Source of the DNA: Membranipora membranacea
Lineage: Eukaryota > Bryozoa > Gymnolaemata > Cheilostomatida > Membraniporidae
Direction of reading: 5' to 3'
Assembly (NCBI GenBank): GCA_914767715.1
Contig: OU612074.1
Coordinates: 9,892,062 to 9,956,061 of the forward strand
DNA: 64,000 nt
Each line of letters opens with the position of its first letter. Position 1 is the first letter of the stretch. Made by a program: the position numbers and the translations under genes. The notes below the pieces were generated by a model, which had not been told where the DNA came from, searched no databases, and was given only the letters and a program-made list of their open reading frames with translations. Shown one piece after another: positions 21,666 to 61,872 of the stretch.

Positions 21666-21667
21666 TT

Positions 21668-22633: not shown

Positions 22634-22971
22634 TTAGGAAATCCTCCTGGCACTAAAATTAGGGGTCAAAATCCGAGCATACTCGGATTTCATCCGAGTA
22701 GTTGAGAACCCTGAGCTGAGTTCAGAAAAGAGTTCAGCGAGGTCCTAAAGGATTCAAAAATAGAGGACTGGGTCACTCCTCACTCCTCACTCATTAAGGC
22801 GATGTGGTGCTACCTGGGCTAGCATTCAGGGCTGGTCTGACTCAAGAATAATATCCTTTGGCAGGTGGTCATCTGATGCCTCAAGAAATGTATTTTGATA
22901 AACTAAGGTGCAGTTTTGGCGAAACAATTGTCCTGAGCTTGCTATGTATGCCTTGCTCAGAACAATTGGTT

Positions 22972-25167: not shown

Positions 25168-25360
25168 ACAGAGGGTAGGCTGCCCCTAAGGAGGCATGCA
25201 AGTTTCCCGAAATCCTCGTACTGAGAGTGTGATACATCCTAGAAAACGAGAATGCATCCTGGAGAGGACCTCCCAATCATGAGTGTGCAGCAAGCTGCCA
25301 AAAACTGAACCGGGCAATAATCGCCTATTGGCAGTGACACTCTGATATATCAGTGCTTTC
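25168..25360. repeat. Dispersed ~190-bp repeat (GGCTGCCCCTAA family)
   Basis: Runs from GGCTGCCCCTAAGGAGG through GAATGCATCC and GGACCTCC to TTGGCAGTGACACT. Other copies are at 32207-32390 and 49970-50165. Identity unknown; possibly a short retroposon. Confidence 0.7.
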
Positions 25361-27084
25361 TCACCTAGCCAAATTTCAATACACTGCACTGCATGATTTC
25401 ACTGCAGTAAATCCAGAGATGGTCTGATTGTGAAGGACTCAATTCATTTTGTTTTTGACTAAGTTTTCGGCAATTTTTCATCATTACGTCTCCAGCAGCA
25501 CAACATACAACATGTGAAATCTGGACGAGAAGTATTGTAAAATCAGAATTATTCTGGTACTTCTCTGACATTATATATTATTCTGAATTATATGAATAAT
25601 ATTTTATATCTCAATACTTATACTCAGCTGCCCTTACATAAGCAGCAACCACTAAATAGCCTCTCCTTGGATGGAGCAATCAAGGTAAATTTACATTTTA
25701 TCATTTTGTTGTTATATATTTCACAATCCAGGAATAACCTGTTTTTATTTGTAATTTGCGTAATTAGATTTAGAATAATTTGCACTAATTTTGAGCCATT
25801 GTTATCTAATGTTTAGTCTTCAAATTGTTTTACAGCTGTGCTGTTCTCAAGATTAATTTGTTTTACATGACTCATTTTATATCAAAATTCTCAAAACCTT
25901 TACAAAAATGTTATATGTTAACGTTATTATTTTAGTTTCACGGTGTTATCGTGGATAGTGAGAATCCAATAAAAGAATTTATGCCACATAGCATCAGTAA
26001 AAACTAAAGCACTTCGATTAATCCAAGAGAGCCGCTACAATTAGTAAAAAGCAATTCTGAAGTCTAGGGATAAATATGAATGAAAAGAGACTGATGATAT
26101 GATTTGAGATGTACATTTGAGTTGGTGTGGCCTAAAATAGTCTTTGTCTGTTACCTCAAACCTTACCAATACCAGCCTGAATTCAACAGCAAAAGACCTT
26201 GCTGATTCTTAACAATATAGGTAGTGGCAGTGAACGGTATTGACCGCCATGAAGAACAATCCTTTCTATAAGTCAACTGTACACAAGTTTGTAAGACAGA
26301 ACGGAATTGTTGTGATGAATTGCTACTAAAAGTGTCTCCTCATCTGTAAACAAGTCGAATACTTGTGATTTTTTTCCTAATCTGTCCTTGAACTTCCTCA
26401 ACTTCTCGCCTAAATTGAAAAAAGAATTAACATCAAACTCAAATTGATCTATACAAATTAAATTTTCAACTTAAAAAGCTCTTCCAAGTGATGATCAGGT
26501 ATACCATTTCAACATTAATTAATTTATTATTATGTTTTTTCGGAGTAATCTCCCTTGATTATTTACAGCTGAGACCATACTTTTGCAAAGTTTTATATAA
26601 GCCATAAAGGAAGCAGATGAGACCTTTTGCTGCAAAGACTCCTTTGTTTCAGCTAACTACAATTGATTTACATATTCAGTAATCCAAAAAATTTACCTTT
26701 ATGCTGAAATAAAAAAGTATCCAAATATCTTAATTTTTAATACAATTAAAATTAAATGACAATATATTAAAATATCAAAGCTTGATCAATCAGAATGAAA
26801 TTCAGTGTAAGGAAGGAAAAGGTCTCAAAATAAACAGCTAAATCTGTTTCACAAAAAAGTTCTTTATATGTATTAAGTTATTGTATTAAATATAGAATTG
26901 TTTTGTATTACAATTACATTAAATATTTATATGCTATTCTGAATTCCTTTTCTGCAATCAATATTTTCAGGTTGGATTTATATAATATTCAAAATTCAAA
27001 GCTTGAATATTATTATTTCTCTTTATTTTAATGATATATATATTATATTATATAATATAATAAATATCAAATTATATTCGCAGT

Positions 27085-29795: not shown

Positions 29796-32206
29796 AGCTG
29801 AGTTCAGAAAAGAGTTCAGCGAGGTCCTAAAGGATTCAAAAATAGAGGACTGGGTCACTCCTCACTCCTCACTCATTGAGGCGATGTGGTGCTACCTGGG
29901 CTAGCATTCAGGGCTGGTCTGACTCAAGAATAATATCCTTTGGCAGGTGGTCATCTGATGCCTCAAGAAATGTATTTTGATAAACTAAGGTGCAGTTTTG
30001 GCGAAACAATTGTCCTGAGCTTGCTATGTATGCCTTGCTCAGAACAATTGGTTTGGTGTTCATTTGTTCGTCAATTCTGCACCAGATTTAACAACATCTA
30101 ATACCCTGGCAAATATCCTGCCTGCCAAACAACATATACAGTGGCGCTGATGGTCATTTTCGGTTACAAATGCGTGAAGGGCCCCATATAGATATTGGTA
30201 CAAAAAGATTTTTTTCTGCCCTTATAACACTCTCCTTGTCTTGGCAATCAAGCTCAAGACTTGACAATAATACCCAGGTCAACTAGAATGAGAAGTTGCC
30301 CTCCCTCAACAAACAAAGGAAAACCTAACGGTAAGGAAAACTTAGAACTATTGTTAAAAGCCAATGATGGGTTTTTATGTTATTCACATCGTTCCTTCAA
30401 ACAGGAAACTGGTCAGCATGCCAGTATTGAAAGAAAAAAGTCTGCTCAAATTCCCCTCCCACCTCCCTTTCACTAACCTATGTCGTACATTATTGAAATT
30501 CTAACAATTTCGTGGTGATGGTGTTCATTTGTTCATCAATTCTGCACCAGATTTAACAACATCTAAGCAACACATGTCTGCCAAACAACATATACAGTGG
30601 CGTTGATCGTCACTTTCGGTTACAAAAGCGTGAAGCACCCCATACTTTTTTCCCATAATCTGTTACATTATAAGAAAGAAAAAATATTATACAGTAGAGG
30701 CTGCCAAGTTTCCTTCTCATCTTAGTCTGTTTGTTGACATTGATAACTGTTTATGCTGCCCTTTCCTACTTGGATAATTACTGTGCCGACTAATTTGTGG
30801 ACTTGATGACATAAGGGCCATCAAATACGTACTCGCTGTCTCACTGTTTCTAAGATTAAATGACACAGCAGCTTTCTAAAGATGTATAGAAAACCTCTAA
30901 ATGACAACCTGTTTTATATTGACGACCCCTCTTATAATGGTCACCCCTCCTATAGTGGCGACCCTCCTACAGTTGTTTATGTTTTACATCCCATTATGTT
31001 TGTTCGGTCTAGTGTTTCATCCACCATAACTCAAAACCTTGTTTTTCTGTTTTATAGATGTACATTGCGGCCTCCAGTTCATATACCATAATTAAACTCA
31101 CATAAAAACTAACAACCTAACCACTCACAACAAACAACATAAACAACAGTGGTGACCCCAGGGGTTTTCCCTGGCCACTCCCTTTCTGAAACTCACAAAA
31201 CTCAGATCACCCTCAACCATCAACTCTTGCAAATCATCCAAAACACAAACTACGGCAAATCTAATAATCACAACACTGACAGATGGAGCTCTCATCCTTC
31301 TAACATCAACAATATGTTCTACCAGTAATAATCAAAATTGCCATGGGATCTTTGAGAACTAGGGGTGTCAATAAACTGTCCATATAATGCAAAACAAGAC
31401 AAAGCCTGACCTCATATGGCCTACTACTGTAACCGGTCCAATGGAGTTTCGATACAGTTCATTTGATGAGGCATTGGATGAGCTTTGATATACCATAAGT
31501 GTATCAGCACGCCATTTCTAGAACATACAGCCTACTCTGTAGCTAGCAGCCAACGTAACATCATACTTGGTTGTTTTGTTGGTGAGCTGCAGACTCGGCA
31601 AAGATATGCAGTCTTAAATTATTGCATAGTTTTCATCATGCAAAGTCATTTCTGATAAATTATTTAGTTTCAACAAATTAAATTTCCTCACACACAGTAA
31701 TTAGCTGTTGGTAGCGTAAAACTGAGAGTGAGTTGCCAAGGAGTCTATCACAAGCTGATCAAAAACCTAAGAACTTAAAAGAAGCAACCCGTAACAGAGC
31801 TGATAATACCGCCAAGTAGGTAATGGCTTGTCACTAACAACTAGAAAAGAGGTCCCACTATAGTGCTTTAGAATCACATGCCTGTTTCATCAACTGCTGG
31901 TGAATAGCGAGCAAACTTAGCACCCAAATTTCCTCAACACCGATTCCCCCTCATCTAGAGAATGTGCTAAATCATTGATAATCTGATGATATTATTGTGT
32001 AGTTTGTGCCATTGTCATTGCAATGGAATATAAATTTGCGCAGCCTGATTATCGCTATGTCACATTGAGGTGTTAAAGACTCTTTGTATGCATTGGTTTC
32101 AGTGAACCTTTGTAAAGGTGGTATCATTTCTTTACAGATATGGTTTCAATTTCTCTTTTAGTGTGAGTGACAAGTCTCTCTCTCACATACGGCCCTGTTT
32201 ATGACA

Positions 32207-32397
32207 TAACAGAGGGTTGGCTGCCCCTAAGGAGGCACGCAAGTTGCCCGAAATCCTCGTACTGAGAGTGTGATACATCCTGGATGCATCCTGGAGAGGA
32301 CCTCCCAAGCATGAGTGTGCAGCAAGCTGCCAAAAACTGAATCAGGCAATTATCGCCTATTGGCAGTGACACTTTGATATATCAGTGCTTTCTGACC
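32207..32397. repeat. Second copy of the GGCTGCCCCTAA repeat
   Basis: Same family as 25168-25360, at the end of copy B; a short stretch (about 14 nt, around GAAAACGAGAATGCATCC) is missing. Confidence 0.7.
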
Positions 32398-32402
32398 TAG
32401 CC

Positions 32403-33991: not shown

Positions 33992-34471
33992 TCAGCGGCA
34001 GAATTTTCCCTTAAGGCATCCTGCTCCATATCCAATACCACCTCCCGCACTGCCAACGACTACTGCTCCTCCAACTACTCCTGCTGCGACCCCGAGAGGT
34101 CCTGTAGCTGGTCCAATACATGCTACTTCTATAGCTCCGGTCATTACTAATGCTCCTGCTGCTCCTCCTCCTAGCATCCCTACAATGGCTCCTCCAAATG
34201 CAGACTGCTTTGCCTCCTCTGCAATCATTTTTTCCTTCAATTTCTTGATATTTACCCGGTCTTCTTCCCTGTCCTTTTCTAGTTGCTTTACTTTATTTTT
34301 GTCTTCTTCCCTGTCCTTTTCAAGTTGCTTTATTTTATTTTTGTCTTCTTCCCTGTCCTTTTCAAGTTTTTCAATACGCTCTATCAATGAGAGGAGCTGT
34401 CTGCTGCTGTCTTCGTAGCCTCCTTTATAGTCCTCACCAACAACCTGCATCGGAATTGTAAATTGTGCCAT
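33992..34471 (-). CDS. Coiled-coil protein with glycine-rich hydrophobic tail
   Basis: 159 codons from ATG 34471 (MAQFTIPMQVVGEDYKGGYE) to the stop at 33992. I chose this ATG because a possible acceptor (CTATGTTTGTCAG, ending 34485) lies just upstream; an in-frame ATG at 34498 would add nine residues. Residues ~35-85 are a highly charged coiled coil containing three 14-residue repeats (QLEKDREEDKNKIK type). Residues ~95-150 are Gly/Ala/Val-rich and hydrophobic with small-residue spacing like a glycine zipper (GGAIVGMLGGGAAGAL, VGGAVVVGSAGGGIGYG), ending CLKGKFCR. Such a tail can insert into membranes or oligomerise (inference). No family is recognised and no signal peptide is seen. TATA box and poly(A) signal were not located. 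Confidence 0.6.
   Translation of the reverse strand: MAQFTIPMQVVGEDYKGGYEDSSRQLLSLIERIEKLEKDREEDKNKIKQLEKDREEDKNKVKQLEKDREEDRVNIKKLKEKMIAEEAKQSAFGGAIVGMLGGGAAGALVMTGAIEVACIGPATGPLGVAAGVVGGAVVVGSAGGGIGYGAGCLKGKFCR
34252..34377 (-). repeat. 42-bp coding tandem repeat, three units
   Basis: TTGTCTTCTTCCCTGTCCTT recurs every 42 bp on the plus strand, corresponding to the 14-residue coiled-coil repeats of the minus-strand gene. Confidence 0.9.
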
Positions 34472-34499
34472 CCTGATTATGAGTAACCTGACAAACATA

Positions 34500-36120
34500 G
34501 ATTATAGGACATAATTATCAATTATTGTCCTCCAAACTTAAATCAGTATGCTGATGTTTGTCTTAGACTAATGTGATACTTATCCTTCTATATCTGAAGA
34601 AGGCAAAATATTCATGCACCATTAGCAAAATTATAAATAATGTTGAATGGTCAGTAGACCCTGGATCTTAGCGATGTAATATTGCAGCTTGTATCAATTA
34701 GTAAATGACATTGCTAAGCAGTGAAAACAAATTTCCTTCACTATTTGATGATACGAGTATCCACTTAACCATTTACCTCATAAATTATGACCATGATCTC
34801 AATTGGTGCGCGTTTGACAGAGAAGCAGTAACTTCAAGCTTGACAAAGAGTGACATTAAAAATATAATAATTATTATATAATACAATATTCTGTTCCCTT
34901 TTTATAATATCGACATTTCGAAGAGTTATTCTAATAATCTAGCTATACTAGTAATTCACACCGATTCGTTTTATAATTCTTAGATTTTTTTGGTCTTATG
35001 AGCTGACACCACACCCTATGCAGGTAAAAATATCGAGGCAGATGGTGTCCAAGATTGATACTGCAGCATAAGAGAAGAGGATTAAAGGGTTAAATTTGTA
35101 TTGAGCTGTAGGCTGATTAAATACTCTACGAGTATAGCCTTTGTTTCATTACTCACCTCTTGCAACGAATAACTCCAAAGTAAGCTCAGATACTATACTT
35201 GTGGTACCACCGAGAGCTAAATTAAGAGTGACTCTGCTCAAATTTGAAGATATCACAGCGCCGCAATTTTAATATGTACTGTAAAACTCTGAAACACTGC
35301 CTACATTATAGCTGCATGTGAACCAAATATTCACTGATAGCATTAATTCACGATACTATTGTCCATTCACGATATCCGCTAAAGCCATGTAGTTGCGTTG
35401 TTACTATGTTGTTATGTTGTTGTTATTATGTTGTTGTTATTATGAGAAGGGAATAATTCATAGGGTGATCACCGATCAAAGCTATTTGGCATTTCTATGT
35501 TTTCATCATAGCCTAGCCAAAATTCTTTCCCTGGTTTTTGTCACGTCTCACTGTTTCTTGCTCATTTTATGTCATATGAATCACTTTTATTTTGCCATGT
35601 TTGGCACTTGTTTGGCACTAGTTTGTTGAGTGGAAATTGATATATTTTCCTACTGTTTGATGGTATCTAAGGGTAAGCAGTCTAACTGAATAATAATTAA
35701 ATTGATATGATTGACAAAAAGGAGCACCAATTGTGTAAATTCATTTTCATGATTAGTAATTTGTGCAATTTTAGTTGTTATTATGAGAAGGGAACAATTC
35801 ATAGGGTGATCACCGATCAAAGCTATTTCATGGCTCATGATACGCCTATTTTTCTGGTCCATCATTCGATAGGTTTTCTCTCTTACTCTCACTGAGTAAG
35901 ATTTCAGTTTTGACTCAGCATTGCGGCAACGTTCAATTCTTAAGATGCATAATCCACCTGATTATTAGTCTTTGAAAACCTGAAGAATCAATCACCATGA
36001 TCCCATGTTGCGATTTCGTAAAGATTTCAGGAGTAATCGCCCCATGGAAATGAGATTAAAGTCACTTTCAGATTTTTACGAATGACCTTTTTTACGCGAA
36101 TAATCATCCCATGTTGATTC
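34500..36120. other. Intergenic with fragments of dispersed repeats
   Basis: GAGAAGGGAA then AATTCATAGGGTGATCACCG occurs at 35442 and 35781. A 127-bp block from GGCATTTCTATG to TTGGCACTTGTTT at 35487-35613 recurs at 36962-37088. No gene is seen. Confidence 0.5.
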
Positions 36121-47635: not shown

Positions 47636-48411
47636 ATATTGAACCTGGTACTTGAGGGTATTGCCTCCTTGTAACAGGACCAGGTCAGGATTCTTTAAAA
47701 TACCCTAACACTGAGGCCTTGTTGTACAACCAACCGCTTTCACATTGTAATACTTATCTGTCAGAACAACTGCCCCATCCAGGAGAGAAACGGGATCCAC
47801 TTGATCAGTAGTCCTGGAATTTCCAACTAGGCCACGCCGCATTGTCTAAAATTAGCATTTTTATTTACGCTCATTGTATAGGGAAAGGGGACATGACTCC
47901 AGTTAAGGTGTGTTTTATATCACTGTTAAGACAGCTTTTCATGTTACTATCATATCAACTATCAGTATTGGTTTTGTGAATGTTAACAATATGACTTGTC
48001 AGGTGATGACAATATTAAAGCCCAGTATGAAACAGTCAGGCTTAATTAGAAAATAAAGTTGAAGGCATTTGGGACCATTTCACAGCCGATCAAAGGTCCA
48101 AGCAATCTTCTGGTATCATTTAAATGGCCAAATTTACATTTCTGTCAATCAAATTTGTATTTCTTCATTCAAGTATTGGTCGCCCAATATTGACATTTTT
48201 ACCATCCTCAAATCTGTGCTAACACAGTAATACTGCTATAAAAAATTAATTCAGTCAAAAGTTTTAGAGTGTATTCAATAGGCTGCTATGTGAAATTAAT
48301 TTCTGTTTGCTGCAGGTTTTTTAGTTAATAAATTAAAACTGGTGGTTAACATGGAATGGAATGCTATGATGTCTTTAACACTCTTAACATGTTAGACAGA
48401 TTTATCATTGT

Positions 48412-49152
48412 CTACTTATACAGTACAGCACAAAACTTAGATTTCTTACAGGCCTCCAGTGAACTGACAACTGATGCTCTCTTGTTTCTATTACCTAGTG
48501 GCTGCAACCTCAGAGTAAGTGGTTTTATTGCTCTCTTGTTTCTATAACTCAGTGGCTTAAACCTCAAATTGAGTGGTTTTATTGCTCTCTTGTTTCTATG
48601 ACCATCTGGTTGCTCCTGATTGGATGCTAATATTGCTCCCTCTGTTCCGCTCTTGTTTCGGTGGCCCAGTGGCTGATTGCTCCTATAACCCAGTGGCAGA
48701 ATCATATTCGGCATCGGTTTTATTGCTCTCTTGTGTCTATAACTCAGTGCCGGGTTAAACCTTAGAGTTCTCTTGTTTCTATGATCATTTGGGCTATCCA
48801 GCTGAGATGTTGGTCTCCCTCCACCATATGCTACAATGTTTACTGTTTTCTTCTTTCCACCATGTACTGCGCCCAAAACACGAAATGGTATTACTTTGAA
48901 CTGCCAGTATATTACGCAGATTTTGGTTAAACACAGATTTAATTCATACTGTCTATATTGAGTAACTCCCTAACTCTAGTCTATTAATTTAGCTTCTCAA
49001 CCTGAAGAAAAAACAGTCATTCAACGCAGCTACTGGGTTCTTTTCAAATATTCTTAGCATAATTCAAATTGAGCTGTGTTCTATAAAACGCTTTATTACT
49101 TACTTGCACCGAGGATGGCGAAAAGGAGAGTGATAAGAATAACCTTGTTCAT
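48412..49152 (-). CDS. Secreted multi-peptide precursor with R-x-K-R sites, minus-strand paralog
   Basis: Coding exons are 49152-49104 and 48866-48412, joined in phase 1, for 167 residues. The first coding exon is only the signal peptide (MNKVILITLLFAILGA). The acceptor GGGCGCAG sits 6 nt inside the position used by the paralog at 59.9 kb, where the AG has become GG here. The mature part has cleavage sites RNKR, RHKR, RNKR, RNKR and RNKR, plus one lost site (RNKS). Predicted peptides include TLRFNPALSY, GTEGAILASNQEQPDGH, AIKPLNLRFKPLSY and AIKPLTLRLQPLGN. The last one, starting ASVVSSLEACKKSKFC, has a C-x5-C pair that could form a loop. The logic is that of a prohormone, neuropeptide, toxin or antimicrobial precursor cut by furin-like proteases in the secretory pathway. 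Family unknown. Confidence 0.72.
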
Positions 49153-49153
49153 T
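49104..49153 (-). CDS. Signal-peptide exon of the minus-strand precursor
   Basis: Acceptor CTCTTTTTAG, then A, then ATG; donor GCAA/GTAAGT. 49 coding nt, ending in phase 1, same length and phase as in the plus-strand paralog. Confidence 0.75.
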
Positions 49154-49359
49154 CTAAAAAGAGGGAAAATATTTATGTTATGAACGGCAGAGTCTGAGAG
49201 ATCAGAGAATTGTGTTGAGAATACAACATGCCATATCCATTGCAATAATAGATGCCGTGTTCATGATATGCCAAGGAGTTAGTTTCACTTTTTGAGCTGA
49301 TATACACACAGGAAAGATTGAGTTTTCAGTGCTATCTTAAAACTTACCTACTTGTGTAT

Positions 49360-49441
49360 CAAAGATGAAGTTGTGCTCTGTGTTGCTGTTTCACTATACA
49401 GAGATGTGTGCTTTCTCCAAAACCCTCCCATGCTTTTTATA
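49360..49441 (-). promoter_or_regulatory. TATA box and untranslated exon 1 of the minus-strand precursor
   Basis: On the minus strand TATAAAAAGC (49441-49432) is followed ~30 nt on by an untranslated exon containing GTGAAACAGCAACACAGAG and a GTAGGT/GTAAGT donor. The same elements precede the paralog at 59466. Confidence 0.6.
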
Positions 49442-49969
49442 CATCTCAAGTTCCATACAGGACATCCTTTTAGAGACAAAATGATTTACTGAAGTTGTTT
49501 TTATGATGCCCATCAAGATTGGATGCATATAATGATTATATGTTATTGATGAAGATGCACCTTATGGGGAACAGCAGTTTCTGAGATTGATATCCTGCTT
49601 ATTACGTTTGTGAAAGGGAAGTAAGATAAATATGGCCTAACTGATCTTTTTCACAGACAAGCTAATTTTAGTTTTCCTTCATTTAATGTGAATCTACTAG
49701 TCCTGGTGATAATTGTAATAGAGGGAAATCCTTTATTGATTGCAAAACTGGGTTAACCAACAGAAAGTCACACAAAGTATGTGTCAAGGGGAAGCAAAAT
49801 GGAAATGACTATTTTCACAGACTAGCCAATTTTGGTTTATTTATAGTATTTGAAGTTTGTAAAGGTCAAGAGTCTCAAAGGTCCTGGGAGATTTGTACAT
49901 CCTTCAAATAAATATCTAAATTAATATTTTATCATCACCATCTTGCTGTTTAGTAAGAAACAGAATATT

Positions 49970-50165
49970 GGGCTGCCCCTAAAGAGGGTTGCAAGGTACC
50001 CTAAATCCTCATACTGAGAATGTGATACATCTGAGATAACTAGAATGCATCCTAGAGATGAGGCCAGGGTGGACCTCCTAATCGTGGGTGTGCAGCGAGC
50101 TGCCAAAACTGAACTGGCACTAATGGGCCATTGGCAGTGACACTTTGATCTTAGCCAATAGGTAA
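49970..50165. repeat. Third copy of the GGCTGCCCCTAA repeat
   Basis: Diverged relative of 25168-25360 and 32207-32397. It ends CACTTTGATCTTAGCCAATA, whose complement resembles the start of U2 snRNA over ~18 nt; the other copies lack this. Confidence 0.65.
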
Positions 50166-50169
50166 AAAG

Positions 50170-50805
50170 TATAATTGGTGTACATCTGTGCAATCAGATA
50201 TCTTTATCCATAACATTATTGTGACTGCCTAAAGTGTGGAAAAGTAAAAAACAACCACTCTTTTTATCAAAGTATACTCATAGCGTTGGACAATAAAACT
50301 AAATTTACTCGCACAAGGACATTATTGAATGATAGAATCGACTTCAAAGCGCAAAAACCCAGGGTCTAGATCCCGTGTCACGGGTTAAATTAAAATATCT
50401 TTGCCTATGCTGTTATTGACCAATTCATATTTATGATAATTTGAAAGTATAGCAGCTTGACTAGGCGAACCAGTGCTAGGCTTACTGTTATACTGTTTGT
50501 GGATCATCATTTTAGTGTAAATATGTAACTGGGGAGAAACACACTCTAGACCTTGAGTTTTTGCACTTTGAAAATAGATTAGATATGAACATTGGTTGTT
50601 TTTTGCTTTCCTTAACACTTTCAGAGGAAAAATTTGCAACCTCAGCCACTGATACTATTTCTTAAACACCTTGCTGACCACCAGAACTTCCCTCTGGGGT
50701 AACAAAGGGTATTCCAATTATCTTTGAATCAAGGTGTTGTGCCAATGTGAAAAAGCAAAAGCCAGTGCACCCTGCAGACTATGTTTCACATCTTTACAAC
50801 TATAC
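50170..50805. other. No gene seen
   Basis: GGGTCTAGATCCC near 50365 is B-box-like and could be another decayed SINE. Confidence 0.35.
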
Positions 50806-50810
50806 TATTC

Positions 50811-50980
50811 GGGGATGGTGAGATGGCGCAATTGGTTAGAATGCTTGCTATTGACTGTCAGGCAATTGGTGACGCAGTAGTTGCGGGTTTAAATCCCATC
50901 GAGGGAGCTTTCAAGGTTGATTGTTCCTGCCCCCCCCCTTCAGGTATCTACCTCCTCTCCATCAGTTTATTGTTGTCCTC
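50811..50980 (+). mobile_element. tRNA-derived SINE, family 2, second copy
   Basis: GGGGATGGTGAGATGGCGCA with A box TGGCGCAATTGG and B box GGTTTAAATCC, ~70 nt apart, then a body shared with 41466-41640 (GGGAGCTTTCA...). Confidence 0.7.
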
Positions 50981-51089
50981 TCCTAGATATAAGTCTGCCA
51001 CCACAGGCAGAACTAACTTGTAGCCGTAAACCAAAAACTGTTGGCCATCTGTCCACCGTTAATGACATATATATATATATATATATATC

Positions 51090-52895
51090 TTGATCCATTT
51101 TTATCTAGGAAGAATATCTCGATGCTGAACCTCAATAAAAATTGATGCTGGTCTCTAATTGTATTAATGATATTCAATGAAATTACTATAATTTAAAAAG
51201 CATGATATCTCTAAGCCTAATGAGAATGAGCACATCATCTGATTTTAACCTACATTCTTCCAACCGCATTATTGGCTAAGCCAACAATGTGTCACTTGAT
51301 TGATGAGAGCTTGAATTATGTGTATTGTATTGTGTAAAAGCTGTTATGAAAATTTGTTCGCATTTTTGATTGTTGTTCTTGGTCAAAAGGTGATACCGCA
51401 ACGGCACTGCATTTCACTAATGATAAGAGTAACCCATATATTTGCTGAAAAGTTAGATTTCTGAATTGAAGACACACTAAGGCATTATGGGGGCATCATT
51501 TTCAGATTTGTTAACTCTTCCTACGGACAATAGCATCACAGTCATCTGTGCCTAGAATCAGGTTTTCCTAAATAACTTGATCCTTAAAAAATCAGGACAA
51601 TTGCTGTATGGGCTATAACTCATTGGGGTGTGCTTAGTGCCCAAGTGTGTGCAAGGATCCTAATAATTGCTGTATATTTGATAATCTAGAGAAATGTATT
51701 CCCAAGTTGGTTTGATGAATAAGAAACATCCAATGTTAGATGCACTTGTCATAAAAGACCACCAAATTATGGCGGTAAAACAAATTCATCGGCTAGGGCA
51801 AATCACAATTTTCATCAGACTAAATGATTGACATGAGCGTTTATAACACGGATTAATAAAGGAAATTATTTACGTCATCATCATGTTATATTAGGCGATC
51901 CTGGCACAGTTGATCTGCGGCACACGAATGGGCGTTAATTTCCAGTGTTGTCGCAATCAGTTTTGTAAAGTGTTTTGAAGGCTTATCTTTGGACCTAAAA
52001 TTGTCATTATTACATATCCAATTAAAGATGCATGACATGAATCACTATATTAAATCCACGACTACTAACTAATTAAGTAATGTTGTGCATTTAAGTGGGA
52101 CAGTATTGAATGCTATTAGCCTGTCTAGGAAGTATATTAAGACTATGATGGGATGTGAACCTTACAATTTGTTGGCTTCAATATTTTCGGTAGCTAATGA
52201 TACAAGTTAGTTTTTTGTTTGTAATATTCACTTCCACTCTCACATGATACTGCAATAAAACTAACTAAATTAAGTTTTTATATTTGTGCAAGAATTGCAT
52301 GACAAGAAAGATAAAAAGGATATTTATAATATTGACATTTGATTAAGGATGAAACCCCCATTATAACAAGCAAAAGAGGAAATTTCCTGCTATAATCTCA
52401 GTCACATTTGACGATTGTTGGTGCTCTTCACTGTATCCTAATTCATTGCCCACTTCGAGTTGATCTGACAATCAGTTCAGTATGATGTGTTTATCCACAA
52501 AGTTTCACCATCAATACCACCTGGAGCAATAATGGACAAAGAGAGTATACACCAGGAATTAAATAATGAATTCTACCGCCTCCCTCGCTATCCCATCCTT
52601 CAATTGATAGCTTGATTTGATTATAAGATCAAACTTGACTGAAAAGTATCTACCGTAATACCAACATGCTTCTCTCCATGGTTTATCACTCATAACTTCT
52701 GGGCTAATTGATCAATCACCTTCTTACTTTTACATCATACCCATTGATGTCTCGAAGTACAAATTGTATGGTTAAAAGAATTAATGCGCATAACTAAATA
52801 AAAGTAATGCGGTTGTTGCAATAATAGCCTTCAGGCTAGCAACAAGGATAGCTTAGAAAATTAATCTTGAGCTACTCTAGAAAGTTCATGAATTT
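51090..52895. other. No gene seen
   Basis: AT-rich intergenic sequence, no convincing exon or repeat. Confidence 0.4.
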
Positions 52896-52897
52896 CC

Positions 52898-53098
52898 ATG
52901 TTAAACATTGATCAATCTTTTTTATTGGGAGAAAGCTGTCACACTTTTTCCTTCCCAAAGGACTGTGCTATGCTCAACAAGTGGATAGCAAATGTAACGC
53001 TGACAAGGCCGTCGATCAAGCTCACATCAAAGTCGAAGCTATGTTCAAAACACTTTGATGATAACGCTTTTGAAAACAAGGACCCATACAAGGAATAG
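52898..53098 (+). pseudogene. THAP zinc-finger domain fragment
   Basis: The frame contains HTFSFPKDCAMLNKWIANV and then SKLCSKHFDDNAF, matching the middle and end of a THAP (C2CH) DNA-binding domain: the FPKD and W core positions, then C-x2-H-F. The N-terminal C-x2-4-C pair is not clear and the frame stops soon after, so this is a fragment. THAP domains occur in P-element-type transposases and host regulators derived from them; the adjoining dispersed repeat favours a transposon origin. Confidence 0.55.
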
Positions 53099-53245
53099 AC
53101 AAACTTAGTGATGCACAGACAGTTAAATTTATACTTTTGTTTGCTAGTGCTTGTTACTGTTAAAACAATTTACAGATTCAGGTTCTGCTTCTTTTCTGAA
53201 TCCTGTTATTGGTTCAACTTTCCATTTGTAGTGAGTTGATTGATT
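53082..53245 (+). repeat. Repeat inverted relative to 55417-55572
   Basis: The complement of 55417-55572 matches from ACCCATACAAGGAATAGAC to GTGAGTTGATTG. It overlaps the end of the THAP fragment. A ~10-nt insertion (TTCTTTTCTG) is present only here. Confidence 0.85.
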
Positions 53246-53267
53246 TTTTTATTACTGATCTGAAGAA

Positions 53268-53715
53268 GCTTAGTCACCATTAGTAAATAATCAACAGTAT
53301 TTACAGTCTCATCTACATTGGAACAAGGAGCTAGACATGATTGGAAGAAACATAATCCGGCAGGATATCATTGTATAGACAGTATTAACCATTTTATTAA
53401 ATACATCTAAACTTACTTCCTCTTTTTCCGTCCAAGCTAATGATCCCGGATTCAACAGAAATACCATAAATTTGCGTCTATTGGCCTCACTTGCACTTCC
53501 AAGTGTCTCTCATAGATAATTTGTTATGATTATTGATGATGGCTAATGCACTCATAGATTCTAGTGGCTACTTAAGGAATATAGGAACTTTTAATAGCTT
53601 CCAGCTAATTGAATGCTTTACATATTTTGTTGTATATAAAGAGGCATCGACTTAGATAAGTTATCAGTCTTCTCAGTTCACATACTCCTATTGATCTCCA
53701 AATAAAGTAAGTTAA
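53268..53715 (+). repeat. Promoter-region duplication, copy 1
   Basis: Near-identical to 63548-64000 from CTGAAGAAGCTTAGTCACC through the TATA box, untranslated exon 1 and its donor. Differences are few (a ~9-nt loss and scattered substitutions). Confidence 0.92.
53633..53706 (+). promoter_or_regulatory. TATA box and untranslated exon 1 of the small secreted peptide gene
   Basis: TATATAAA at 53633-53640, a TCAGTC initiator-like sequence 31 bp downstream (53664), then an exon ending AAATAAA/GTAAGT at 53706. Confidence 0.65.
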
Positions 53716-54104
53716 GTATACTGTAATATAGAGCTAACTGTGGTAACCTTTTGGAAAAAAAGTTCAATGTGTTCTATTGATTAATTACACATTGACTTGA
53801 ACTTCTCCAACAAAATACTTAGGTGCTTGGTACATTATCCTATTACCTATATCTGCAAGGGGTGGAATGATGTCAGGGAGGGATTCTGACTTTTAAAGTT
53901 TATCAATGAACTGTGCAACACATTCTGATCACTGAACACTAATATATTGGTTCTCATGTATATTTGTTCTCACAAGTGTAGGAATGAAATGATATTTGCC
54001 TGCGAATAAATCGACAGAGAGCTGCTAAAAAATAGATTTTACTGTTTTTCACTGTGTTTCTCCTATAATCTTATCTCTCCAATCATCCTTTCTTTCAGAT
54101 AATA

Positions 54105-54420
54105 ATGAAGGTACTCGTACTCATCTCACTGCTCATTGCTGTGTTCGGTAAGTTAAAACTTTACACAAATATTATCCATCTCTAACCTTTGCAAATCATT
54201 CTCCCCTGAGTGGATAAAATTTGATAAATTATTTTGTTTCGTTCCATAGAAATTTGCCAACATTCACACTTTGCCTTAATAGATAATCTGATCTATATTT
54301 GCAGCTGTTACTCAAACTGAAGCTGATCTTAAATCAACCATCGGCAAAATAGTGAATAGTGATGCTGGTCAAAAAGTAATATCGGTAGTTGGGAATGTTT
54401 ATGATAAGATTAAAGGATAA
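54105..54420 (+). CDS. Small secreted amphipathic peptide (52 residues), split by one intron
   Basis: Coding exons 54105-54147 and 54305-54420 join in phase 1 (GTTCG/GTAAGT; acceptor ATATTTGCAG). Exon 2 begins at 54099 behind ATCATCCTTTCTTTCAG. Residues 1-21 (MKVLVLISLLIAVFAVTQTE then A) are a signal peptide. The remaining ~31 residues contain DLKSTIGKIVNSDAGQ and VISVVGNVYDKIKG; Leu/Ile/Val recur every 3-4 positions, there are five Lys against three Asp, and no Cys. This fits an amphipathic helix as in linear antimicrobial or cytolytic peptides, or a small signalling peptide; function is inference. A fourth, untranslated exon starts at 54699 after donor 54448, with AATAAA at 54807. Confidence 0.72.
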
Positions 54421-54698
54421 CAAAACAAGACGCAGCCTACTATCAAGGTATGTAATATATCTTATGAATATTGTAATATAAATGCCCTTGTGCTGTCATG
54501 AACAGAAATGACAATGAGGACATATTTGACTACGAGGCATACGATTTTTGAGATTGCACATAATTTATTGAAAAGTGATTACGGGATCTCTGTCTGTATT
54601 TTAGTCAGTATTAGACACATCATTATTAGTAATATATGTGTCGAGTAAGAACGTAAAAATTTAATCTCAATGACCTATGTTCCTTTTTCCTTTTATAG

Positions 54699-54830
54699 AT
54701 GTCAATGACGCATATATGAGCCATATAGAAAGCCGGCAATCCTTTCATCCAGCATTATAAGATCCATTTTCATGCATGACATTGCTAATTGCTAAACAAA
54801 TAAGTAAATAAATTATACGACACCAAAGAT
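54699..54830 (+). other. 3' untranslated exon and poly(A) signal of the small peptide gene
   Basis: Acceptor CCTTTTTCCTTTTATAG, then AATAAA at 54807-54812. The stop codon lies only 27 nt before the previous junction, so nonsense decay would not be triggered. Confidence 0.5.
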
Positions 54831-54892
54831 CTTTTTCAACAAAAAATGTCAGTAGATATTCAAGCAACTTCTAGTTTCCCGAGATCTACAGT

Positions 54893-55213
54893 ATTTTTTT
54901 TTTTTTGCACTAGGTCTTATTTGACCGCCCTATTTAACGGGCCCCCTTAAGCTCGGGTGGCTTGTGTGAGGTAGGACCCTATACCCTTGCCCGCCGTTGC
55001 CGGCTACTCTTTTTTCGAAGAGGCAGAGGGGGATTTTTATACTGCATGCAAGCACACAGTAGACCTCCTGTATTTATGGTCCTGATCCGAACAAACCTGG
55101 CTAGGATGAATGGCTTGCCAGTGCCAAATCAGAAATGACAGCCGGCGCCGGGAATCAAACCTGGATCATAAGATCACAAGTCCATACCCTTAACTGTCAG
55201 ACCACTGCTGACT
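54893..55213 (-). mobile_element. Full-length tRNA-derived SINE, family 3
   Basis: On the minus strand: GAGTCAGCAGTGGTCTGACA (A-box region), GGTTTGATTCCCGGCG (B box), a ~190-nt body and a poly(A) tail, seen as a T run at 54893-54906. The 3' body recurs at 22502-22633 and ~29583-29713. Confidence 0.7.
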
Positions 55214-55416
55214 CCTATATTAAGTAAGGTAGCACCATCAACAAGTGATAGTAATGCATCTAAGATTAAAAATCTATGGTAAAAAAATCCAAAAAAAACT
55301 TAACGCCTAGAGGATTTGCAATCTAGTTATTTCGAAGTGCGTAAGAGAAACTAAATATGATGACAGTCAGTGAACCGTGAATCTGATCAGTCAGATCGGT
55401 TATCAACAAAAATTTT

Positions 55417-55572
55417 AATCAATCAACTCACAACAAATGGAAAGTTGAACCAATAACAGGATTCAGAACCTGAATCTGTAAATTGTTTTAACAGTAACAA
55501 GCACTAGCAAACCAAAGTATACATTTAACTGTCTGTGCATCACTAAGTTTGTCTATTCCTTGTATGGGTCCA
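55417..55572 (-). repeat. Inverted partner of the 53082-53245 repeat
   Basis: The two copies face each other across the small peptide gene. Confidence 0.85.
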
Positions 55573-55574
55573 GA

Positions 55575-57655
55575 AGGGCTAGAGCCAAAAGGTTGTTAAT
55601 TCAACCAATTTACTATGGGGATATGTGTCTGTCTGAAGGAAATTGGGATAGCTAATGACTGTTTTGCCTTCTCTATTTAGAGAATTTTTTTCCTTTCAAA
55701 CCATCTGTCTCAGTGGTACAGTAATTGACTATACACTCACTGTTCTTAATGTCCTGCATTTAGCCCCGCTTGCACCATATATTTTGATAATAGCTGTTGG
55801 TAAAAGTCAGTGAAAATCACATGGTTCTGTCTCAGTCCGAAGACTGAGAAACACAGGTGCAGCCGCCATACTTGGTGCCAAGTTGCACACAGTTTGCAAG
55901 CATTGCCTTATGTGATGTTGCTCTGATGTTATATCGGCTGATTCCCAATGCCAAGTGACTACCAATGCCTTTAAAGTTTAAAATCTCATAACTACCTCAA
56001 TATAGATTCTAATGCTGAAACTTGGTTACTTGAAAAACTAGTCTGAGCCCCCTTCCTCCGGCGACCCCCAGCCAGGGGGGAAGATGATTGTAGATTGACG
56101 ATATAAGTATACATATATATATATATATAACTTCAAATAAAATGTATGTACAGGAATCAATGGCACAAGAATTTCCTACCAACATTCCCTTTTGTGTATG
56201 CTAGAGTTTTTAGTCGGCTGTTCTACTCAAATTGATATAAAAACCTATTGAAATCTGTGGAAAATCCGACCGTTCATGATATTTATCCATCAATTATCTT
56301 AGCATAGTGTATTTCACAATAGTTCATAAGCTGACCTGCTAATTCCTGTATGTTTCCATGGAACCTTTCTCCTGCATGTAAAGGCTTGCTACTAAGAACC
56401 ATTATCATAAAACAATTTTTGGAGACTACTTAGTGCAATCCTGGCTTGAGATGAATACATTGTTTTGAGGTACCTAATCCAGATGGTCCCAGCTATTGGC
56501 AGCTCCTATTCATTTGCATCCGCACCAATTGATTAATTTTTTAAATTGCAGTCACAATCATGGCGGACACTCTGTATGATTCTTAGCTTGAGTTGCTTGA
56601 TTTACTGTAATCTTTGTCGAGCAAAAGATTGTTTTACCAGAATTCAGCAAAAATCAGGTTCCGTAATGCTGTTACACGGGTACTCGTACCCTAGCCAAAT
56701 TTTTGAAATACTCGATATCCATTCTAGTTTTCGCCTACCTATTCAACCCCTAACCATCCAGATGCATTATGATTTGTTGTCTAATCTCTATGAAATGTTT
56801 TTTTTATTTATTTCACTCAACAGGAAACAAATTTTACTGAACATTTTAGATGTTTTGTTATGTCACCCTCCGCAATAATAAATAATAACCTCCATTCTGA
56901 TTTTTTGTATATATAGAGGATTAACCTATGATCAGACATCAGTGTTTTATATCACATCCATACAAAGAATCACCAAAATGATAGTAAGTAACCGTTATAT
57001 ATCAAGATTCCTACCAAAGATTCAAGGGGATTCTCCGAAAACAGGATCTTATAGTAATTCAGTCATGCAAGAGCAGGGTATGAGTTTTCTTGCCATCATT
57101 CAATAAGTCTTTATATTGTTTCCGTTAGTTACAACATGAAACTCTGCTTGACTTTCTAGTGGAATGATGACCTGGTAGTTCATCTTAATTATTGATGGTC
57201 AATTGCGAATGTGCATTGTTAACACTTCTGCCAGAATGCTGCTCAATAATATCTCATCTGATGAGTCATTTCCACAAAATTTCTAAATATAACTCAAATA
57301 AAAGCACTTATTTTTCTGATTTCTGATTCTGTTTTTGAAAGGATTGGGAGTTATTATTTTACAGGTGACTGAAGCTGAAAATTTTCATAGTTACCAAGAT
57401 TAGGCAGGAATTTTGAATGCATATGTATGACTAGAGGCGGAACAAGTAGGCTTAAATGAGCACGGGTATATGAAGTAGTCTGGAAAAAAAATATTCCATA
57501 CTCAACGAAGAATATAGAAAATCCAATACATAAGCATGCAGTTCAAGTAATAACTGAAAATCGAAGAACCATCCTGTATGGAACCATACTCCAAATCAAA
57601 AAATTATTTCTGATGTGATAATTACATGAATAGTTCTCTTCGCAAAGATATATAA
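55575..57655. other. Intergenic with decayed repeat copies
   Basis: TTTTACCAGAATTCAGC...AAATCAGGTT at 56630-56665 and CTGCCAGAATGCTGCTCAATA near 57232 are diverged copies of parts of the palindrome at 61.9-63.4 kb. A 110-codon frame at 56546-56878 overlaps the first and has no family features. Confidence 0.45.
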
Positions 57656-57659
57656 AACA

Positions 57660-58372
57660 CTTATATATATATATATATATAAATATATTGAGATATGCTA
57701 ACTTGAGCTGCCCTTGTGTGAAAAATTCATGGCATCATCTGCCTGTAACCTTGTTTCACCCATGACATCCATAGTACAAATACAATGGTGTTCTAATGGC
57801 TACTCAAGCTTTAAATTTGTATTGGGTGAATTCAATAAGTCACCTCAAATAAACTTCGAATCTATTGAAGCTTATTTTATCTCGAGAATTTCGGGTGTAC
57901 TTTACTTTGAATTTTTGCTATTTGTTATCACAATGATAAGAGTTTAAGTGGTTCGACAAGGTGTGATTAGACGCATCGTAACCTTGAAACTTTAGAATCC
58001 AATAGATGTAAAAAAGTGTAGGCGTAGCCTTGTGACCTAGCCAAGTTCTCATTCCTACAAAAACTTGCCGCAAGACAAGGCTAGCATATGTTGCTACCTG
58101 CAATAACGCTTCTACAATTTGACTTGATAATTTTTCTATGCCTTACGTTGCTGCTGATCATAGCACAAGCTCACTGTAAGACCTTTTAATTTAATTTAAA
58201 TTAATTTTAATTTAATAATTGGTAATATCATAGACCATTGACACACCTATTCATGTCTTAACGGTTCTCTCTGGGTAAAATGATAAAATAAAGGTACTGG
58301 CTAAGCAATACTGACAAGATTGTAATAATTCAATTATCAATATTTAGAGCGACATATAACTAGAAATGAACC
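57660..58372. repeat. Inverted partner of the 42528-43225 repeat
   Basis: It carries GAATGAGAACTTGGCTAGGT and TTTCAAGGTTACGATGCGTC on the minus strand, as at 42.8-42.9 kb. Confidence 0.8.
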
Positions 58373-58374
58373 AT

Positions 58375-59115
58375 GAACCATGAATTAGTTTGGCTAGATA
58401 ATCATAGTCATATAAATAATATAGATAGTGGAAGTGAGCATTACAAACAAAAAACTAGTTTCTATCATTATCTCGTGGAAGAATGGAAGCCAACGAATGC
58501 TGAGGATGACATTACACAAACAGTCTTGATTGTTGCCCTGCTCGAGTTCAATAGGATGTTGATGATTGTTCTAAGTGCTGATAATTACTAATGGCATTTT
58601 TTAGTAAAAGCTATTGACTCGGATATGTTTTCAATTATATTTCCAGGATTAATTATGACAACCATGCTGGAAAATATGAATCGTTTTTTGACAAATACGA
58701 CTTTCATCATTACATTAAACCACTTCCTCTATTGTATTTTTTGTAATGATGGTTTAATTTGTGCAACATGTTTCAACATGTCATGTATTTAGGTCTGACA
58801 GTATTGGCAGTATCTGTCTATAGGGAGATGGCATTTTTCAGTGAAACAGTATCGGTGAGCTTCCGCCATATTACTTTACAGAGTTGATTGTGAAAACATA
58901 GGTAATTAGCATCCATTAGCGCAGACTAGCTATGCCAAATGCCAAATATGTCTAAGATCATTGCATGAAATCATCTCCCCTGTATCTGTGTGTTATGATG
59001 ATTCAGGCAGATTGTTTTGCGTAATGGAAATTTTGGTTTGCCCTGGCTGATGAATTTGTTCTACTCCAATAAATTGGTGGTCTTATATGACACTTTCACT
59101 TAATGGGTTGGGATC
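58375..59115. other. No gene seen
   Basis: A 72-codon frame (58373-58591) has no recognisable features. The rest is AT-rich. Confidence 0.35.
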
Positions 59116-59465
59116 ATTAAACAGATGTGCACCAATTTCTCCTAACATGATGAGGGATCTTTACAAAAATGATAGGAAAACTGAAATTAGTTAGTATCTA
59201 GAAGTCATCATTTCCATTTCGCTTCCTCTCTGCATATTTTGTGTCACTTCCTGGTTGTTAAACCAGTTCTGCAATTGGTAAAGGATATCCCTATTTTCAA
59301 TTAGCAAAGAAACTGGAAATGAACACTAAAAGCAGGAAAACTAAAATCAGCTAGTTTGTGAAAATTATCATCCTGTTTCCCTTTCACAAATGTTTGATCT
59401 TGAACTTGATCATGCATAGTAAATCATTTTGTTCCAAAGGAAGTCCTGTATTGGAATGAGAAATG

Positions 59466-59548
59466 TATAAAAAGCTTGGAAAGATTTTGAAGACAGCATA
59501 TATATCTGTATAGTGAAACAGCAACACAGAGAAGAACTTCATCTACAA
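59466..59548 (+). promoter_or_regulatory. TATA box and untranslated exon 1 of the plus-strand precursor
   Basis: TATAAAAAGC at 59466-59475, then an exon with GTGAAACAGCAACACAGAG ending TCTACAA/GTAAGT at 59548. Confidence 0.65.
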
Positions 59549-59757
59549 GTAAGTAAGTTTTCTTGTCACACAGACAAATTAAACCAATCTAAACAACATG
59601 CCTTTATGCGTATTGGCTCAATCAATGAAATTATCTCCTCAGCGTATCATGAATATAGGCATCTATTATCCAAACTTATATATGTGTTAATATACACACA
59701 ATAATCTTATCTCTCGGGTTCTGCCGTTCATATCATATTATTGATCTCTTTTTTTAG

Positions 59758-59807
59758 AATGAACAAGGTTATTTTCATCACTCTGCTTTTCACCATCCTC
59801 GGTGCAA
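59758..59807 (+). CDS. Signal-peptide exon of the plus-strand precursor
   Basis: Acceptor TTGATCTCTTTTTTTAG, then A and ATG; donor GCAA/GTAAGT; 49 coding nt. Confidence 0.78.
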
Positions 59808-60527
59808 GTAAGTAATAATGCCCTTCATAAGACACATCTTAATTTTAATTATGTTAAGAATTCCAGGTTGAGAAGAGGAATGGTTAGATAAGAGGTTTGA
59901 GGTTTGAACGACAATGTATATGAAATCTGTGTTTAACAAAATCTGAATAATAAACTGGTGATTTATGATATACTATTCTGTGTTGAAGGCGCTGTACTTG
60001 ATGGGAATAAGCAAACAGTAAACAATGTAGCTATAGCATATGGTAGAGGGACACCAACATCACAGCTGGATAGCCCAGATGGTCATAGAATCAAGAGAGG
60101 AACAGAAGGACCAACACCAGCATCCAAGCATGATCGTCCAGATGGTCATAGAAACAAGAGAGCAATAAAACCACAACCTCTGGGGTCTAAGCGACTGGGT
60201 CATAGAAACAAGAGAGCAATGAAACCGCTTACTCTGAGGTTTAACCCACTGAGTTATAGAAGCAAGAGACGGACAGAAGGACCAACACCAGCATCCAAGC
60301 ATGATCGTCCAGATGGTCATAGAAACAAGAGAGCAATAAAACCAGAACCTCTGGGGTCTAAGCGACTGGGTCATAGAAACAAGAGAGCAATGAAACCGCT
60401 TACTCTGAGGTTTAACCCACTGAGTTATAGAAGCAAGAGAGGGACAGAAGGACCAAGACCAGCATCCAAGCAGGATCGTCGAGATGGTCATAGAAACAAG
60501 AGAGGGTTTAAGGGTCACTTCCACTGA
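59759..60527 (+). CDS. Secreted multi-peptide precursor with R-x-K-R sites, plus-strand paralog
   Basis: Coding exons 59759-59807 and 59989-60527 join in phase 1 for 195 residues. MNKVIFITLLFTILGA is the signal peptide. After a spacer come eight furin-type sites (RIKR, RNKR, RNKR, RSKR, RNKR, RNKR, RSKR, RNKR). They separate a three-peptide cassette, used twice and begun a third time: GTEGPTPASKHDRPDGH, AIKPQPLGSKRLGH and AMKPLTLRFNPLSY. The last predicted peptide is GFKGHFH before TGA. Peptides are basic and Pro-rich, lack Cys and lack the C-terminal Gly needed for amidation. AATAAA lies at 60700. The tail appears frameshifted relative to the paralog at 48.4 kb. Signalling, antimicrobial or venom roles are all possible; no family is recognised. 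Confidence 0.75.
60099..60527 (+). repeat. 171-bp (57-residue) coding tandem repeat, ~2.5 units
   Basis: Units start at 60099, 60270 and 60441 and encode the three-peptide cassette with its cleavage sites. The first two are nearly identical, so the expansion is recent. Confidence 0.92.
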
Positions 60528-60607
60528 GGTATAGAACCAAGAGAGCATCAGTCTTCAGTTCCCTGGCGGTCTGTAAGATATCTCAGTTTAGTGCTGTTCT
60601 TAATTAA
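60528..60607 (+). pseudogene. Out-of-frame remnant of the precursor's last peptide
   Basis: In another frame, from the bases around the TGA to TAA at 60607, the sequence reads YRTKRASVFSSLAVCKISQ and on to AVLN. This aligns with the in-frame C-terminus of the minus-strand paralog (RNKRASVVSSLEACKKSK and on). A small indel just before 60527 must have cut the plus-strand precursor short, assuming no sequence error. Confidence 0.65.
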
Positions 60608-61872
60608 TAGAAAATGAAAAATCTGTCTAACATGTTAAGAGTGTTAAAGACCTCATAGCATTCCATTCCATGTTAACCACCAGTTTTATTTTATTAACTA
60701 ATAAACCTCTCAGCAAACAAAAATTAATTTCACATAGCAGCTTATGGATGTACTCTAAAACTTCTGACTGAATTAATTTTCCATAGCAGTATTACTGTAT
60801 TAGCACAGATATAATGATGGTATTAATGTCAATATTGGGCGACCAATAAATGAATGAAGAAATACAAATTTGATCAACAGAAGTAAAGCAAAGTAAATTT
60901 AGCCTTTTAAATGATACCAAAAGAACGTTTGACCATTTGATATATTATTAATATTATTTTCTTATTTAGCCTGAGTGTTGCATACTGGGCTTTAATATAT
61001 CATCACCTGACAAGTAATATTGTTAACATTTACAAAACCAATACATATAGTTGATATGATAATAACATGAAAAGCCATCTTCACAATCATTTGAAACACA
61101 CACTTAAATGGATTCATTTTTCCTTGCCCTACAATGAGAATAAAAAAGTATACTTATTATTGACATTTTTTAAAGGATATAGACTTATTGTAAATTCCAG
61201 GACTACTGATCAAGTGGATCCTGTTTCTCTCCTGGAAGGGCAATTGTTTTGACAGATAAGTATTACAATGTGAGAGCGGTTGGTTGTACAACAAAGCATC
61301 AGTGTTAGGGTATTTTTAAATACCTGACCTGGTTCTGACACAAGGAGGCAATACCCGCAAGTCAAGAACCATGTTCAATACCTGTTCCAACGGAAAAGGA
61401 TGAAGAAAGTATCAAACGTATTTAATAAATTTATCAATACCATCTAACAATGATATTCCTGCCCAAATATGTTACTTCCAATGTAGAAGGTACATAGATC
61501 AGAATTTAGTGCAACTCTCACAGAAATCATGGGGTTCATGATGAAGAAGTATTTTTATATGAATAAAAACAATTTTAAAATATAGTGCATGCAGATAGAC
61601 TAGATAGCCTTTATTTAACAAAAAAGCTATTGGTGTACTTTGCAGTGTAACACAAAGGTACACCGCTCATTTGTTGCGGTGTGTGGAGCGGTTTGGTTTG
61701 ATGGTACAGTTTGAAGGATGCCACTAATCCCCAAGAATCTTCTGAATATATACAGCACTCCTGTCATGAATTGGCAGAGAATACAGCAAACACTCACAAA
61801 CTCTCCTGTTGGTATAGGATGGATGATCTTAATATCTTGCTTTTCAATCATTTCAAGTGCCTTCAAGTTTTC

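Follow-up and report, generated by a model that had tools for sequence, protein, structure and literature searches.

We analysed a 64,000-nucleotide stretch of Membranipora membranacea DNA (contig OU612074.1, positions 9,892,062 to 9,956,061, forward strand), called the window here as a whole, for a pair of genes that appear to encode secreted precursors of many short peptides. Gene A is read from the minus strand and gene B from the plus strand, and comparison of their DNA indicates that they are paralogs on the arms of one inverted duplication. The original prediction had placed two such paralogs at 48412-49152 (minus) and 59759-60527 (plus), and these coordinates were borne out. Weaker inverted matches were found farther inside the duplication (51747-51971/59092-58873 and 52153-52241/58512-58424). 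A tblastn comparison of proteins A and B with the whole window found no third gene copy, the remaining matches having E-values of at least 2.6. Both genes follow a common plan, with a TATAAAAAG box, a presumed untranslated exon 1, a short exon for the signal peptide, and a single exon holding all of the peptide modules. This anatomy, together with the module array, the cleavage motifs, and the paralogy, can be read from the DNA itself. The features are as follows:

47637..49838, minus strand: arm A of the inverted duplication, which houses gene A (DNA comparison with arm B)
59178..61380, plus strand: arm B of the inverted duplication, which houses gene B (DNA comparison with arm A)
49434..49441, minus strand: gene A TATA box TATAAAAA, ~30 bp 5' of the presumed start site; aligned with, and identical in, gene B
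49348..49411, minus strand: exon 1 of gene A, presumably untranslated; the TATA box was used to estimate its 5' end, and a GTAAGT donor marks its 3' end
49347-49154, minus strand: gene A intron 1, between the presumed exon 1 and the signal exon
49104..49152, minus strand: gene A exon 2, coding part, predicted signal peptide MNKVILITLLFAILGA; phase-1 GTAAGT donor; 92% identical to B
48867..49103, minus strand: gene A intron 2, 237 bp
48412..48866, minus strand: gene A exon 3 coding sequence, with spacer, modules, five R-x-K-R sites, and the two-Cys tail ASVVSSLEACKKSKFCAVLYK
59466..59473, plus strand: gene B TATA box TATAAAAA, aligned with that of A
59497..59552, plus strand: exon 1 of gene B, presumably untranslated; its 5' end and the start site are estimates
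59553-59757, plus strand: gene B intron 1
59759..59807, plus strand: gene B exon 2, coding part, predicted signal peptide MNKVIFITLLFTILGA
59808..59988, plus strand: gene B intron 2, 181 bp; its acceptor AG lies 5' of the position used in A
59989..60527, plus strand: gene B exon 3 coding sequence, with three G-type and four K-type modules and eight R-x-K-R sites
60071..60412, plus strand: two copies of a 171-bp (57-residue) repeat, 94% identical in DNA, also found as a tandem array
60521..60601, plus strand: sequence resembling the C-terminal tail of A, out of the coding frame of B (tblastn, 67% over 27 residues)

The spliced coding sequences yield a protein of 167 residues for A (49152-49104 joined to 48866-48412) and one of 195 residues for B (59759-59807 joined to 59989-60527). 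Genes A and B share the donor GTAAGT at introns 1 and 2 and the acceptor TTTTTAG|AATG at intron 1. At the second intron, the join in A gives LGA-IHGGKK; B has TG in place of the acceptor AG used by A, and an AG farther 5' preserves the frame to give LGA-SAVLDGN. Identity between the copies is 92% in the signal exon versus 70–73% in the introns (Fisher p 0.0016), and it is 86% at 49429-49350, just past the TATA box and covering nearly all of exon 1 (p 0.009 against introns). The last exon is 77% identical, a figure that includes repeats possibly mispaired in the alignment. Alignment gaps between A and B are divisible by three in 3/4 cases inside the coding sequence versus 4/27 outside (p 0.028). 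The conservation of the exon 1 region, the donors, and the signal exon relative to the introns supports splicing, and the exon joins claimed originally find support both in the sequence and in the paralog.

The N-terminal signal peptide of a multi-peptide precursor is seen in both proteins as a hydrophobic stretch after MNK, with Kyte-Doolittle means of 2.94 (A) and 2.67 (B) over residues 4-16; its hydrophobicity and its conserved separate exon uphold the earlier assignment. The remainder of each protein is built from two module types that end in R-x-K-R: an 18-residue K type beginning AIKP or AMKP (AIKPLNLRFKPLSYRNKR, AIKPLTLRLQPLGNRNKR, AMKPLTLRFNPLSYRSKR, AIKPQPLGSKRLGHRNKR, AIKPEPLGSKRLGHRNKR) and a 21-residue G type beginning GTEGP (GTEGPTPASKHDRPDGHRNKR and variants). 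Module order in B is G-K-K-G-K-K-G, and the 171-bp unit has the length of one G-K-K. The 57-residue cassette described originally does recur twice in B as this unit; it is a composite of one G and two K modules rather than a single repeat type. In A, a shortened K module and a fused stretch are followed by a G module, two further K modules, and the two-Cys tail. Two degenerate junctions, RSNQ and RNKS, lie where two 18-residue modules of A look fused, so that the earlier count of intact sites (five in A, eight in B) stands and that of broken sites in A rises from one to two.

In composition shuffles of each protein body, R-x-[KR]-R occurred on average 0.32 times for A and 0.92 times for B (maxima 3 and 5), and in 0/20,000 shuffles for either protein did it reach the observed 5 or 8; because the proteins contain internal repeats, this tests the arrangement of the sites and does not treat them as independent. 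The recurrent sites of a multi-peptide precursor are thus present in both. All 13 intact sites are coded AGA-xxx-AAG-AGA, with x being N in nine, S in two, I in one, and H in one. Other dibasic pairs are few: 5/5 KR/RR sites in A and 8/11 in B fall within R-x-K-R, which leaves three outside in B (SKR twice, DRR once) and zero in A. The amidation Gly of amidated-neuropeptide prohormones precedes 0/13 R-x-K-R sites. Acidic residues make up 4% of A and 7% of B, versus 22% and 26% for basic ones.

Furin-type convertases cut after R-x-K-R, and basic-residue carboxypeptidases then strip K and R. The carboxypeptidases of the D/E type remove Lys and Arg only, so the first Arg of each site and the variable residue should stay, leaving peptides that end in RN, RS, or RH (for example ...PLSYRN and ...DGHRN). 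The release of peptides that had been proposed is consistent with the furin-type sites, and the ends given for them, ...SY and ...GH, need this correction. We tabulated 12 predicted products; the two AMKP copies of B, being identical, share one entry. Their masses are ~1.5–2.1 kDa, except for a fused 45-mer of A (4907.490) and a 7-mer at the end of B (829.410). Predicted [M+H]+ values are 1930.138 for AIKPLNLRFKPLSYRN, 1804.092 for AIKPLTLRLQPLGNRN, 1894.037 for AMKPLTLRFNPLSYRS, 1772.040 and 1773.024 for the AIKPQ/EPLGSKRLGHRN forms, and 2028.959 for GTEGPTPASKHDRPDGHRN.

Searches with the spliced proteins A and B found no Pfam family above cut-off, all 3 matches listed lying below it (best E-values 0.077 for A and 0.038 for B). 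With B as the only query, no match was found among PDB sequences, none of 64 pattern-matching stretches in GTDB species genomes was confirmed as a relative, and neither was any of 4 pattern matches in IMG/VR; the last two collections hold prokaryotes and viruses, which makes a negative result there weak evidence where an animal gene is concerned, and records of the window's own genome may be missing from them. Judged from titles and abstract openings, none of the papers listed describes the peptide sequences of A or B, and the literature on RNKR and RSKR concerns viruses, retroviral envelopes, NGF, and furin processing in yeast. The original statement that no described family could be recognised agrees with Pfam (A and B), PDB (B), and the literature, short of proof, and annotated orthologs may well exist in relatives. 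On sequence grounds, A and B would be multi-peptide furin precursors, an architecture of a known kind, with no Pfam family assigned.

That the products are secreted and cut by furin appears highly probable from the signal peptides and site arrays. By analogy with known precursors, we further suggest, tentatively, that A and B are 'protein operons', most likely for host-defence peptides; secretion, cutting, and the defence function are what we infer from the anatomy, and the last is favoured only moderately. The MNKVI... signal peptide would route the pre-pro-protein to the secretory pathway, where a furin-type convertase would cut after every R-x-K-R and free linear, basic peptides of the K and G types, mostly 12 to 19 residues long. 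Two further products would come from gene A, the fused 45-mer and the two-Cys tail of 20 residues, and B would add a 7-residue end. Trimming of basic residues would then leave the ends given above, and the products would act as extracellular host-defence peptides made in bulk. The site type, the missing amidation Gly, the low acidic content, and the variation between copies fit constitutive secreted effectors better than amidated neuropeptides. Nonsynonymous divergence (dN) exceeds synonymous divergence (dS) in the K module pair B1/B2 (dN 0.31, dS 0.13) and in the G module pair A/B1 (dN 0.19, dS 0.15), and such an excess in some modules fits fast-evolving effectors. Held about as tentatively is the proposal that the pair represents an undescribed animal peptide family, a separate non-insect 'protein operon' in which the G-K-K order would deliver two peptide types at a fixed ratio and the array would grow and fuse by unequal exchange.

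A number of observations weigh against a defence function. Natural proline-rich antimicrobial peptides (PrAMPs) contain 14–49% Pro (PMC11678341). Pro content is 0–12% in 10/12 predicted products and 16% in two, both G peptides; these two alone fall in the PrAMP range, and the products as a family do not. The Pro-Arg-Pro motif often seen in PrAMPs occurs once in all, in the last G module of B (11% Pro). With charges from 0 to +4, helical moments of 0.03–0.39, and a negative mean Eisenberg hydrophobicity in 10/12, the 12 predicted products also do not resemble amphipathic helical cationic antimicrobial peptides (AMPs), and in moment and hydrophobicity they differ from membrane-active AMPs. None of the known AMP classes tested fits, and the defence claim rests on architecture. 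Within 1 kb upstream of A or B, no NF-kB or AP-1 consensus was found. Over the same distance, B alone had a STAT-type match, at one place, and two IRF-type matches, and C/EBP-type matches came to 3 for A and 8 for B (window background ~2.7 per kb). GATA-type matches numbered 6 in A and 3 in B (background ~3.3); C/EBP- and GATA-type matches are too common for much inference, and enrichment of immune promoter motifs is not consistent over the two upstream regions.

The genes themselves add to these objections. Reading the sequence of A, two cleavage sites are lost; the stop of B comes early, after GFKGHFH, with the frame of the A-like tail lost. Over 86 aligned codons (the signal exon, the N-terminal spacer minus two B codons, and one hand-picked module pair per type), dN is 0.14 and dS 0.17, from 25 nonsynonymous and 9 synonymous differences, values that weak constraint or drift also gives. 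The K module pair A2/B2 (dN 0.10, dS 0.32) resembles a conserved signal. The 3' flank (47637-48411 versus ~60609-61380) is 87% identical between the copies, above the last exon and the introns, which does not favour strong selection on the coding part; our guess is that gene conversion occurred later, the other option being a conserved element that escaped notice.

Alternatively, the peptides could be hormones, neuropeptides, or pheromones made in many copies to act on receptors. Short multi-copy peptides behind a signal peptide are what such a precursor would contain, the AIKP...PLSY/PLGH core of the K module is kept in both paralogs, and the A2/B2 pair shows the constraint just mentioned. 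However, amidation Gly is missing at all R-x-K-R sites and other KR/RR sites are few. Numerous positions differ between other copies, those at the C-terminus included (K B1/B2), and we consider signalling rather unlikely. Amidated peptides were not found by mass spectrometry in the sponge E. fluviatilis (PMC9525235), so the missing Gly alone cannot exclude signalling in every animal. A sponge such as Amphimedon does have a furin (PMC6850559). Decay is the next alternative: a gene pair falling apart, or a non-coding minisatellite that stays open by chance, would account for the out-of-frame tail of B, the two lost sites and fused module of A, an overall dN/dS of ~0.8, and a 3' flank more conserved than the last exon. 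The repeat array of B also leaves a 164-codon antisense open reading frame (ORF) open (60060-60554, minus), which we set aside as a gene and regard as a by-product of the repeat. Such decay is nonetheless improbable given that conservation is higher in the signal exon and around exon 1 than in the introns, that the donors are identical, that most coding indels keep the frame, and that all intact sites retain AGA-xxx-AAG-AGA while x varies.

It is about equally improbable that the proteins, cut or uncut, are structural, matrix, adhesive, or mineral-binding polypeptides whose basic repeats bind polyanions. They are repeat proteins with many basic residues and Pro, and the window holds a Gly-rich repeat ORF (10837-11973) and a mucin-like ORF (1-1395) elsewhere. 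These ORFs are ~36 kb or more away, though, with no link seen, and the R-x-K-R sites coincide with module boundaries; the modules lack Cys (the two of A sit in its tail), and the sole N-x-S/T past residue 16 lies at a degenerate junction of A. Least likely is a similarly processed set of peptides that serve as venom or to deter predators. The linear venom peptides of some spiders come from multi-peptide precursors, which offers a precedent, and a TATA promoter with paralogs suits abundant secretion, but the module peptides are without cysteines and weakly amphipathic. Host-defence precursors remain our tentative choice.

Outside the gene pair, several other features of the window were noted. 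A Pfam context scan covered 6 ORFs, 42 stretches picked by eye, and 10 ORFs, as part of 447 ORFs of at least 45 codons. It found a THAP domain above cut-off at 52892-53098, which we take to point to an animal, and 9 further families at E-values of 0.0013 to 0.04, listed with no cut-offs given and taken for chance. In the window, the observed/expected ratio is 0.47 for CpG and 1.26 for both TG and CA, a depletion and excess that suggest a methylated genome, unlike that of Drosophila. Rfam gave 0 matches at gathering score in the window, and 0 tRNAs were found. The Gly-rich ORF (10837-11973, plus) has VVGGRGLN units, 24/72-bp repeats, and a signal-like MSTAIKTILLGLLAVQ near its start, and showed no Pfam match at E 0.01. 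The mucin-like ORF (1-1395, plus) is an open frame of 465 codons rich in Thr, Ser, and Gln, with a 186-bp repeat and no PDB match; with an ORF at 2512-2790 (plus) that has a transmembrane-like stretch by eye, it perhaps forms one mucin-like membrane protein. An ORF at 33992-34501 (minus) has coiled-coil-like KQLEKDREEDK repeats and a Gly-rich hydrophobic C-terminus, with DUF2207_C and ANG-1-like matches below cut-off. A direct tandem duplication of ~7.1 kb (18253-25370 and 25369-32402, 97% identical) could be an assembly artefact; both copies carry similar ORFs of non-LTR retrotransposon type, with zf-RVT just below cut-off in the first. Other repeated elements, perhaps mobile, are found at 42527-43240/57648-58375 (inverted, 89%) and 53260-53719/63548-64000 (direct, 97%), and a 66-bp minisatellite lies at 3997-4574 (8.8 copies, 96% matches).

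In cnidarian, placozoan, and ctenophore prohormones, a signal peptide is followed by copies of short peptides that are cut out at basic sites. Genes A and B are like such multi-copy neuropeptide prohormones in this layout and unlike them in that amidation Gly is missing from all 13 sites and that extra KR/RR sites and acidic residues are few. The products of A and B, mostly at 0–12% Pro with a single Pro-Arg-Pro, also depart from PrAMP precursors. The fungal KEPs are likewise secreted repeat precursors, in which convertase sites lie on either side of each peptide core (PMC9769878, PMC6339444, PMC7329392); their products are made by KEX2, whereas the sites here are R-x-K-R and the genes lie near a THAP domain.

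Among insects, Baramicin A (BaraA) of Drosophila is a single precursor that yields several peptides, of more than one kind, by cutting at RXRR and has been likened to a 'protein operon' (PMC8423362). Tandem-repeat organisation is described as rare among AMPs (PMC8423362), and multiple furin-made products as widespread in animal AMP genes (PMC9246212), which also include Baramicin paralogs that have lost a site or are shortened at one end (PMC9246212). Like BaraA, A and B have more than one short-peptide type per precursor and furin sites between them, and here too site loss or truncation has occurred among the paralogs (PMC8423362, PMC9246212); unlike BaraA, they use R-x-K-R instead of RXRR. 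The four-mer RPDG is common to the IM10-like motif of BaraA (VWKRPDGRTV; PMC8423362) and the G modules, a likeness noticed by eye only and a lead at most. A similar layout is found in apidaecin and riptocin (PMC11678341) and in tandem-repeat drosocin (PMC5078906), where furin-like sites or a conserved motif stand between several similar short peptides. By this analogy, A and B share a layout with the insect precursors; family membership is not implied.

If the proposed reading is true, A and B would enlarge the known range of multi-peptide furin precursors by an orphan group of short peptides. The new part would be the sequences and the alternating modules, the furin multi-peptide kind itself being known. 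The two alternating module types would make a case for asking whether the purpose of tandem precursors is to hold cooperating peptides at a set dose ratio.

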